Assembly (NCBI GenBank): GCA_033182465.1
Contig: CP137323.1
Span: 2,418,001 to 2,482,000 of the forward strand
Source: Sanghuangporus weigelae
Lineage: Eukaryota > Basidiomycota > Agaricomycetes > Hymenochaetales > Hymenochaetaceae
DNA length: 64,000 nt
Direction of reading: 5' to 3'
A program made the translations under genes and the position numbers. The notes under the pieces are model-generated. The model had not been told where the DNA came from, did no database searches, and worked only from the letters and a program-made list of their open reading frames with translations. Shown one piece after another: positions 32,403-37,936 of the stretch; positions within the stretch are counted from its first letter, which is position 1; every line of letters starts with the position of its first letter.

Positions 32403-35400
32403 ATGGCGTCCTATACCGCCCTCAACTCTTCAGCGCGGAACAGCGACTCGAACCTCGTGCCATCGCCGCAGCAGCAGCCGTCGTCGTCCACGTCCTCTCC
32501 TCCAGACGCAGGTCCGGGCGGCGAGTCAAACTCACTCCTGGAGCACATCGACATCGACGCAATCAACTTTGACCAACCGCTCTCCCCGCCCAACCCGAAT
32601 CGATTCTCGTCCTTCTCCCCCTCGATTGGCACGAATTATGGGAGTGGGAGTGGTGGAGGCTCGGTGCGCGATTCGGTCGTGTCGGAGAGTAATTCGGCTG
32701 TGCCCATCTCGGGTGCAGCGGGTGCGTTTGCTGGTGCGGCTGCGGCAAGAGAAGCAGCCGGTGGTAGTGGAGGAGCGGGAGAGGAGGCGTCGTTCCCCGC
32801 GTCGAAGGAAGCTGTACATGCGTATGACGTCTCCGGGGAACGCGGGAACGGTTATAGCCTCGCGGGCACGGGCACGGGCAAGTCCCGCCGCTTGTGGTGG
32901 GTCGTAGCCGGCGTAGCGGCGCTCATCGTCGTCGCAGCGATCGCCATACCCGTCGGTGTCGTCGTCGGGCGGAAAGACTCTCACAACCGCGCCGCGCAGA
33001 ACTCTCCTTCTAGCAACAATGGGAACGGGAACGGCAATAGCAACTCGACTGACCCGAATAGTGCGAACCCGCCGACGGTGGCGGTAACGACGGGCGGGGA
33101 CGGGTCGACGGTGACGACCGAGGACGGGTCCACGTTCACCTACACGAACAAGTTCGGCGGGTTCTGGGTGTCCGACCCGCGCGATCCGTTCAACAACGGC
33201 GCGCAACCCAACGCGTGGACGCCCCCGCTCAATACGAGCTGGCGCTGGGGGGTCGACAAGATCCACGGCGTGAACCTCGGGGGGCTGTTCGTCCTCGAGC
33301 CGTTCATCGTCCCCGCTCTATACCAGAAATACCAAACTGGCGCGATAATCGCAGAGGACGAGTGGACGTTATCCCAGGCGATGGCTGCCGACACGTCCGA
33401 AGGCGGGGGGCTGAGCCAGCTGGAGGAGCACTACGACACGTTCATCACGGAGGAGGACATCGCGCAGATCGCCGGGGCGGGGCTCAACTGGATCCGGCTG
33501 CCCATCCCCTTCTGGGCCATCGACGAGTGGGGCGAGGAGCCCTTCCTGACGCGCACCTGCTGGAAGTACATCCTGCGCGTCTTCCGCTGGTGCCGCAAGT
33601 ACGGCGTGCGCATCAAGATCGACCTGCACACCGCGCCCGGCAGCCAGAATGGGTACAACCACTCCGGGAAGCTGGGCCAGATCAACTTCTTGCGGGGCGT
33701 GATGGGGTATGCGAACGCGCAGCGCATGCTGGGGTATGTGAGGATTATCACGGAGTTCATCGCCCAGCCGGAGTATAGGGACCTCATACCGATGTTTGGG
33801 ATCATCAACGAGCCCCGCGCGTCGGATATTGGGAAGGACGTCCTCTCGAGTGTGAGTATCCGTGTCTTCTGATTAATTTACATGCATGATTCTAATGATT
33901 TGTAGTTGTACGTCGCTTTGCTTTATGTTTCTAGTTTAGATAGCTAACATCCAGATCGTGCTATATGCAGCTACGTGCAAGCATACGACACGATGCGCGG
34001 GATAACGGGCATCGGCGAGGGCAACGGGCCGTTCCTCAGCCTGCACGACGGCTTCCTGGGGCTCGCGGAGTGGGCGGACTTCCTCCCCGGCGCGGACCGC
34101 GTCAACCTCGACGTGCATCCGTACTTTGGTGAGCAATCACTCAAACAAATCTGGCGGTGCTGTTCTTCGTGGTTAATTAGTCGATATGTTAGCGTTCAAT
34201 GGACAGCCGAATACGGACCCGATTGACGAGTGGGTCGCGAGGCCGTGTACCGCGTGGGGTTCGATGGTGAACACAAGGTACGCAAGCGCAGTGCAGCGCA
34301 TTGCATTTCCTCCCCTTCTCACCGAATCTGATCCCCCTTTTTACTTTTTTTTTTTCCCCTCTTCTCCTTGTCCGTAGTCAATCGACGTTCGGCGTGACCG
34401 TCGCGGGCGAGTTCAGCAACGCGATCAACGACTGCGGGCTGTACCTCAACGGCGTGACGAACTCGCACTCCTACGGCGGGGACTGCAGCGCTTGGGAGGA
34501 CGCGAGTCGGTGGGACGACGCGACGAAGGAAGGCTTGAGGACGTTTGCGCTCGCGAGCTTCGACGCGTTGCAGAATTGGTTCTTCTGGACGTGGAAGGTC
34601 CGTCTCAGTCTCAGTCTCAGCTCTCTCTCCTTTTTCTCTCCCCGTTTTTTTTTTTTTCTTTTCTCTCTACCACATGTTAGGAAGGCGTTGACTGAACACG
34701 AAACGGATTTTTGTTGGGTCGCAGATCGGAAACTCGACAGCAGGACGCGTCGAAGCGCCCCTCTGGTCGTACAAAGCGGGGCTCGAAGGCGGGTGGATGC
34801 CGCGCGACCCGCGCTCCGCGGCGGGGACGTGCGCGCAGCTCGGTGCCGCCGCGGGCCCCGCGTTCGACGGGTCCTTCGAGTCCTGGCAGACGGGCGGGCC
34901 CGGCGCGGGCGCGATCCCCGCCTCGGAGCTCTCGCCCTACACTGCGTGGCCCCCCGCGAGCATGCGCGGCGTGACGGGGGACGAGGCGTTCTTGCCGACG
35001 TATACGCCCACGGGCACGGTGAGTACTCTCCCGCCGGATACGTTCACCGGTGCGCCGACGGGTGTGAGCGTGGGCGATGGGTGGGCGGATGCGAGTGATG
35101 CGGTTGGGGGGGTTACGGAGGTTGCGGGGTGTTCTTAGTGCGTTCTTTTCTTTTTATCTGGTTTCTTTGGTTTCTCTCTCCTCTTTTCTTCAAACCAAAA
35201 GGAAGAAAAGAGAGAGGGAGAGAGAGAGAAGAGAAACGCATTTACGCCTTTACCGCCGTCCCGAAAAAAACAGATCCACTAACACACTTCATTTTTATTT
35301 TTATTTCTATTTTCCTCGTGTCATACATACGATGTAGCCCGGACCCATGGGACTCGGCCGTGCAGACGATGCCGACGACGACGTGCACGGGCGCCGCGGG

Positions 35401-36072: not shown

Positions 36073-36954
36073 TATTTCGTCGATTTTTGTTTGTGGTAGC
36101 TCCGTTTTCGTTTGCCCTCTCATCTCACTGGACTACATACGTGTTATTCAAGGACTTACTATACCTTACCTTACTTGATATTCATTCGACACTCGATAGT
36201 TTTGTATACACTTTTTTTTTTTTTGTTTTTTTTTTTTTGTTTCTTGATGTCAGACGTGTATCGTGTTGACACACTCGTGTCGTGTTTTTCTCTTTCGGTT
36301 CGTCTGTTCGTCGATCGATCCGTTATGTAGTAGGTGGCCTCTGACCACCCTTTCACTTCTTTTTTTTTTTTCGCCCCTTCTCTGGTTCAATACGCCGAGA
36401 GTTTGACTGACGAGTCGAGTGACGATATTTTTTTTGAGACTTGATGATGATGAAGATACCAATTTTTTCTTGATACATTACTTGACGTGTCATCCTTGTC
36501 CTGTCCTCTTCGCCTGGTCATAGGCCGCTAGCCTCAAATTCATTGGTCAATTATATATATACGTGTTCGTCGATTCGAGGGGACGACGACGAGTTTGAGA
36601 GCTCCCCTCTGTCTTTCCATTCCAATGCTCGTCATCGTCAAATCAGAATTCTCTTTCGGAAATCCCTCCAGTTCGTTGACCCACAAGTTTCGGCGGTCGG
36701 TCCGGTTATTGACTACATGTAGTACATGGCGTTCTCCGGGTTACTCGTACGTACGTATTTTTACCTCGGCACTTGTTGCTTACTTGGTCGCATTGCGTTG
36801 GGTACAAGGGCCGTATTGGCCTCTGTCGCTCCCGCTTCTTTTCTTTGCTACTATTGGCGGAAGACTCTGCTCTTCATCCCACTGGTTGACCTTTAGCTTC
36901 ATGTCGTCTACGGGTTCGGCCATTGACTAGTAAGTAGTACTTACTAGTATTCGT

Positions 36955-36987
36955 TTACTTACTTACTTACTTACTGACTGACTGACT
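36955..36987 (+). repeat. TTAC and TGAC tetranucleotide arrays
   Basis: Five TTAC units run directly into three TGAC units, at the place in copy 2 where copy 1 has the CATA array. The two copies therefore evolved different microsatellites from a shared seed. Confidence 0.75.
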
Positions 36988-37936
36988 TGTTTTGCTGGCT
37001 TCTGTTTGTGGGTTAGCTCGTCGCCTTTATCTCATTCGTCCCTTTCATCCTGTTCATCCCATCGGAATACGTAACTTATCATGCGGAGGACTTGCTATTA
37101 CCTTACTTGATATTCGACACCCAGTAGTTTTGTGAGATTTGCTGTCTTTCTTTGTCGATATGTACAGCATGTCGATCCTCGCGTTTTTTTTTTTTTTTTT
37201 TCCTTCTGTTCGGTCGGTGAGTTGGTTCGTTATACAGCTGGCCTACGATCACTGGTTTACTTGCTTGTTCTGTCCGACACGGCGAGGTTTTGACGAGTAA
37301 CGATATACTTTTTGATGCTTTTTTCTCTTTATGCATTCTTGACGGGTCACTTTGTCCCTCACCAGGTTATTGGCCGCTAGCCTCGGGTCCATTAGCTTTT
37401 CACGTTCGGCCGTCTGTTCGCGTCCATTCGAGGGTTCTTGTCCAGCCTCATTGCGGTACTGCGACCTACTGCGACAGAGTACCGCCATCACGCCATCGCG
37501 GTCATTTCACTCGAATTTATGGTATTTCTCTCTGAGTCTCTCCGGCTTGCCAGTATGCCTTGGCACTGAGTTCATTGGTTGTCGTTTTCTTGTGCCCTCT
37601 CCTCCCCTCCTCGCCAACCTCGGCGCTTTCTCGCGCTTCTCTTAGCTCTCGGGTGGACGCTGAGGAAAACAGCGTTTCGCGTGCGTGGTCTTGGTTGGTC
37701 GCTTGTTCGTTGGCACTTGGCAGGGGGGGAGAGAAGAACCAGAACCTGACAGGTTTGAAATGGGCGATCTCGGTCGACCACATATCGAAGTCGTCGGGGG
37801 AATTAATATCTGCGGACTGATGGAACTATGGTGTATGGTGAAGCACGCGAATGTGCTGCTACGGACTGACGGACCCGATTTGCAAGGGACCTGGACGGGA
37901 GAAAAGTGGGAGAAGTGAGCCAAAGGCTGCCTAAGG

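Follow-up and report, generated by a model that had tools for sequence, protein, structure and literature searches.

The glucanase gene and its exons

Within the window (the whole 64,000-nt stretch of DNA analysed) a gene at 32403-35138 (+) comprises six exons and five introns (Table 1), giving a coding sequence of 2328 nt and a product of 775 aa; no in-frame ATG other than 32403 occurs between 32328 and 32410. The total of 2430 nt proposed from an earlier sequence-only reading was thus corrected to 2328 nt, and its divisibility by three was retained. Exon 1 contains an N-terminal region with a hydrophobic segment (identified by eye), the start of the GH5 domain and the Glu of the NEP motif (both placed by alignment with a Candida enzyme).

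Table 1. Exons and introns of the glucanase gene (window positions).
Feature	Position	Strand	Description
Exon 1	32403..33851	+	1449 nt; ends ...GTC CTC TCG AGT, phase 0
Intron 1	33852..33905	+	54 nt, GTGAGT...TTGTAG
Exon 2	33906..33907	+	TT, bases 1-2 of a TTC (Phe) codon
Intron 2	33908..33970	+	63 nt, GTACGT...ATGCAG
Exon 3	33971..34128	+	Starts C TAC GTG CAA: third base of the Phe codon, then YVQAYDT
Intron 3	34129..34192	+	64 nt; from gene model and spliced alignment
Exon 4	34193..34277	+	From gene model and spliced alignment
Intron 4	34278..34377	+	100 nt, T run; from gene model and spliced alignment
Exon 5	34378..34597	+	Holds the Glu of AGEFS
Intron 5	34598..34724	+	127 nt, T run; from gene model and spliced alignment
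Exon 6	34725..35138	+	Extends to the stop codon

The domain matched Candida exo-1,3-beta-glucanase 3o6a (E 1.7e-51) over residues 2-372 of 383, and both Glu motifs (NEP and GEFS; test pattern GE[WF]S) were aligned with those of the Candida protein. We take the Glu residues of NEP and GE[WF]S to be the catalytic pair in such glucanases, and GH5_9 to be the appropriate subfamily label; as judged from its sequence, the gene encodes a putative GH5_9-type exo-beta-1,3-glucanase, a cutter of cell-wall sugar. The Pfam gathering score of PF00150, a model of GH5 at large, was missed (21.2 bits against 23.5), and a comparison of the whole protein with Pfam gave no family at E 0.001.

Several other features of the region were noted. 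By eye, positions 32403-33260 of the window encode a long low-complexity N-terminal part with a hydrophobic stretch (WWVVAGVAALIVVAAIAIPVGVVVG), which suggests that the glucanase may be membrane-anchored. Introns 4 and 5 (100 and 127 nt) are the two longest among 27 introns collected from the gene family (below), and contain runs of 11 and 13 T. Downstream of the gene, at 36100-37610 of the window, lie diverged direct copies spaced about 850-930 nt apart (36510-36544 and 37359-37393, 77%; 36184-36205 and 37112-37133, 86%); a 165-nt piece of this region matched only itself in a DNA-level search of the genome.

Splice sites and reading frame around TT

The region 33852-33970 and its borders read AGT/GTGAGT...TTGTAG/TT/GTACGT...ATGCAG/CTACGTG, and the splice sites that had been claimed around TT were found at the positions given for them. 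Both introns flanking TT have canonical borders and normal lengths. When TT is included no stop occurs before 35138 and the gene is otherwise intact, so that the frame is restored for 775 codons; the predicted mRNA junction is CTCTCGAGT-TT-CTACGTGCAAG, and the spliced product reads ...KDVLSS-F-YVQAYDT..., with AGT-TT-CTAC specifying Ser-Phe-Tyr. Direct joining of 33851 to 33971, skipping TT, shifts the frame to a stop at 34224, whereas retention of intron 1 leads to a stop at 33870 and retention of intron 2 to a stop at 33945. Without TT both the frame and a conserved aromatic residue are lost; the splice sites, the frame and the aromatic column can each be read directly from the DNA.

The strength of the sites was scored against a reference of 27 introns of GH5-family genes from the same genome, obtained by spliced alignment, three of which are introns 3, 4 and 5 of this gene; all 27 were retained, including doubtful ones (one in C3 at 1309-1354 and two of paralog L008). 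Donor 33852 scored 8.5, and acceptors 33905 and 33970 scored 5.7 each. Donor 33908 scored 5.1 when the exon bases were counted, above only 3 of the 27, whereas its intronic part (GTACGT) was at or above that of 15 of the 27. Branch-like motifs were seen in both introns: CTAAT in intron 1, whose A (33895) is 10 nt from the AG end (and CTGAT, with its A at 33872), and CTAAC in intron 2, where the distance between the A (33947) and the AG end is 23 nt. These add little, since motifs of the CTRAY type are carried by only 8 of the 27 family introns. A de novo intron training set from 264 kb (the window and a further 200 kb of genome) was tried and rejected: the coding model gave 31 doubtful candidates, and strict intron motifs were not enriched, numbering 237 compared to 277 in reversed sequence (137 compared to 78 with open joined flanks).

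Single-intron models were enumerated with donors at 33805-33959, acceptors at 33880-33999, introns of at least 38 nt, and the frame kept without a stop, and two-intron models with a middle exon of at most 60 nt. Seven single-intron models kept the frame, every one with a donor of 4.0 or less and the best with a two-site sum of 9.1; among 19 frame-keeping two-intron models the one with TT led, its four sites summing to 25.0 versus 17.0 for the next. Expressed per site, the TT model scored 6.3 and the best single-intron model 4.6. The argument that frame arithmetic requires two bases is sound provided that splicing uses the strong sites 33852 and 33970, and does not hold otherwise, since the seven single-intron models keep the frame; nor is TT the sole frame-keeping solution, in view of the 19 two-intron models that it leads.

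The best of the single-intron models removes one longer intron with other sites, 33850-33954 (105 nt), and yields ...VLS-NRAICS-YVQAY..., a four-residue insertion in which Ser replaces the conserved aromatic residue. It reads in frame as far as the natural stop (779 aa), its acceptor is ordinary (5.1), and a gene caller unable to make 2-nt exons might select it. Its donor GTGTGA, however, scored 4.0, above 2 of the 27, when GTGAGT two bases further on scored 8.5; its acceptor ends 7 nt from the A of CTAAC, and the four-residue insertion was found in none of seven homologs. We consider this model very unlikely.

Intron length bears upon a different explanation, namely that a single 119-nt intron occupies 33852-33970 and that the assembly has lost two bases beside its junction. 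A single intron with these outer sites needs only TT before CTAC, such errors do occur, and an intron of 119 nt would not be out of character for the gene, since introns 4 and 5 are of comparable or greater size. Against it, only 1 of the 27 family introns is at least 119 nt long (intron 5 of this gene), whereas 23 of the 27 are 40-70 nt, a range that includes both introns 1 and 2; and the junction GCAG/CTAC is not a homopolymer. The coincidence that this explanation demands was estimated from 40,000 shuffles of the 119-nt stretch, in which the outer six and four bases were fixed and the remainder was shuffled keeping the dinucleotide content. An AG-NN-GT flanked by parts of 45 nt or more arose in 3810 shuffles. 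The 2-nt exon had sites exceeding the 10% quantile of known introns in 341 (71 with TT), but sites as good as those observed in only 5, of which 2 had TT. A frame-restoring exon of 2, 5, 8, 11 or 14 nt appeared in 1363 of the 40,000 with sites above the 10% quantile, and in 29 with sites as good. The loss of two bases in assembly is, in our judgement, highly improbable. RNA folding of the 119-nt stretch revealed nothing unusual (z 1.27).

Homologs and spliced alignment

The genome compared was 33.87 Mb in 13 contigs. The closest paralog, on C5 (78% over domain residues 1-186, 57% over 189-248), has unbroken DNA across the TT site (GQDNIGHFYLQAHD, reading HFYLQAH), its own intron splitting the Pro codon of the NEP motif. 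The C3 paralog (58% over 102-345) is also without an intron at the TT site (GADPLQRFYFEAYN, reading RFYFEAY), and three C1 paralogs and one C7 paralog are likewise unbroken at the aromatic column. That TT completes the Phe of SSFYVQAYDT, as the sequence-only reading had it, was borne out, both the C3 and C5 paralogs having Phe exactly there. The column was examined in an alignment of 8 sequences in which X replaced the residue of the window gene; the seven homologs (six paralogs and Candida) all have an aromatic residue there (F, F, Y, Y, Y, F, F). L008 was left out because it aligned poorly at the TT site, and the weaker matches on C8 and C11 lay outside the comparison. When the Phe residue was omitted, the aligner opened a one-residue gap exactly at that column.

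L008 (G000:C3:1898019-1901693) is a distant GH5 paralog with a 60-nt intron (GTGAGT...AAG) at 1946-2005, near the position matching the TT exon, where its alignment is poor. Three other GH5 paralogs (L010, L013 and L018) lie within 17 kb (G000:C1:780322-797291), and in each of them an intron interrupts the Glu codon of NEP; the intron of the C5 paralog is two bases past this position, in the Pro codon, and neither the gene in the window nor the C3 paralog has one there. The NEP introns of the C1 and C5 paralogs are a further case of nearly, but not quite, the same intron position. A search for orthologs in viral contigs gave no relatives, and a search for a fungal ortholog in genome contigs gave none, the 3 bacterial partial matches all ending before the junction.

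Spliced alignment was undertaken with a dynamic programme of our own, restricted to GT-AG introns and without site preferences, at intron penalties of 10, 14 and 20, and also with frameshifts allowed. For the C5 and C3 queries the free optimum included 33852-33905 together with 33908-33970 at every penalty and when frameshifts were allowed. Banning exons of less than 6 nt (an approximate ban, as it follows the best path only) reduced the score of the best GT-AG path from 1387 to 1368 for C5 and from 951 to 935 for C3, a cost of 19 and 16 points despite the saving of one intron penalty. Under the ban the C5 query took 33850-33981 and the C3 query took 33850-33954, so that the best single-intron model lies 16 below the TT path for the latter query. 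When GC donors were allowed as well, the same ban led to a 14-nt exon with a GC donor (introns 33840-33905 and 33920-33970), scoring 1380 for C5 and 943 for C3. Both values are under those of the TT model; donor 33840 scored 0.5, below all 27 reference donors (a GC donor being outside the scoring), and VLSS is lost. The probability of this exon, or of some other frame-keeping intron pair, appears negligible.

The Candida query never selected the TT exon at any setting and consequently gives it no support. Its path was 33856-33981, with 34254-34377 as the next-but-one intron; we read this as misalignment by a distant query, since donor 33856 (0.9) and acceptor 33981 (1.5) scored below all 27 reference introns. 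Homology, splice-site strength and the shuffle controls together back the reading of a 2-nt exon, and we conclude that the gene very probably has a real, constitutive exon TT between two ordinary short GT-AG introns.

Splicing, origin and comparison with known exons

The size of the splicing machinery would preclude joint use of an acceptor and a donor that are so close. Acceptor 33905 and donor 33908, two bases apart, would not be occupied together, and because of this closeness we infer that the introns are removed one at a time. One intron would leave first; after either first step TT would sit within an exon of normal length, and the second intron would then be removed. Under intron definition a short intron in fungi is recognised as a unit, so the tiny exon should be no obstacle. 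Mis-spliced RNA, whether from skipping or retention, would probably be degraded because of the early stops at 34224, 33870 and 33945. It is doubtful that the TT exon serves as an on/off frame switch, in which the introns would compete for overlapping sites in a fixed order and skipping (stop at 34224) would tune the amount of glucanase.

Splicing of the TT flanks one intron at a time, rather than by nesting, is likely. The sequence-only reading had allowed for a nested intron spliced in two steps, i.e., a stwintron, in which one intron lies inside a splice site of another and 33852-33970 is wholly removed. Two GT-AG units do lie almost back to back, as in the stwintrons described in the excerpted PMC9024468, but no intervening bases remain from a stwintron, TT is not supplied by the sequence at either edge of 33852-33970, and removal of the block drops TT and shifts the frame to the stop at 34224; the nested alternative is thus not supported and is extremely unlikely.

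Since the paralogs examined have no intron at the TT site, the two introns would have been either gained by this copy or lost from the others. For Fusarium, Nelson and Syed (PMC12940212) proposed that loss of an exon-edge base was rescued by a cryptic tiny exon; loss of TT from the start of exon 3, rescued by the upstream TT, would fit that proposed route, but the resemblance of the two places falls short of significance (148 of 2000 shuffles). An origin by tandem duplication was considered and rejected: the likeness around the two acceptors (TGTAGTTGTACGT / TGCAGCTACGT) was not significant, 148 of 2000 shuffles scoring as high. The similarity of intron 1 to intron 2 was weak (23 of 500 shuffles as high). 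There was no sign of a spreading intron element, since the 119 nt matched only themselves in the genome.

A microexon is reportedly present in Trichoderma Xlr2 (PMC11121469). The TT exon is near the lower size limit for exons, and the earlier statement that it would be among the shortest known holds; it is not the shortest, and ultra-short exons are already known in kind, because 1-nt exons have been published for Arabidopsis APC11 (PMC4674806), plant VPS55 (PMC8831610) and Fusarium CYP621A (Nelson and Syed 2026, PMC12940212), each paper being drawn upon in part. Like the TT exon, those of APC11 (PMC4674806) and VPS55 (PMC8831610) are ultra-short and needed for the proper protein; they differ in being 1-nt plant exons, for which RNA-seq and RT-PCR evidence and conservation across land plants are reported. 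For Arabidopsis, Drosophila and human, PMC12940212 cites exons of 2-5 bp, which are of the size class of TT in other kingdoms. Among fungi, the P450 genes of Phanerochaete chrysosporium also combine short introns with very small exons, the shortest being 6 bp in the portion of PMC1184071 consulted, compared to 2 nt here. The Hypoxylaceae stwintrons (PMC9024468, in excerpt) resemble the TT locus in that adjacent short fungal introns are removed successively, and differ in having no exon between, one intron splitting the donor of the other. In the excerpts of PMC3990503 and PMC4014442 microexons appear only as a read-mapping setting, and those of PMC8042270 and PMC12409088 contain no 2-nt exon; among the matches listed from open-licence PMC papers, none that names a 2-nt exon in a fungus was found, and a direct search for the phrase gave two papers on unrelated matters.

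The closest parallel is CYP621A (PMC12940212, in excerpt), also a fungal nuclear gene with a tiny exon between two GT-AG introns in a conserved motif; there too the inference began with a frame that did not match, a relative lacking introns and an intron that was too long. Its exon is 1 nt, the central base of a Gly codon, whereas that described here is 2 nt; it is known from 20 orthologs and from SRA reads (18 listed), whereas the TT exon is known from the DNA of one species (comparison with the same excerpt of PMC12940212). The TT exon is easy to test, because paralogs in the same genome are unbroken at that place. Exons of one or two bases illustrate the reach of intron-by-intron recognition, and gene callers overlook them and then mis-annotate the protein; the TT exon, if true, would join that of Fusarium CYP621A as a fungal example, the two genes being unrelated.
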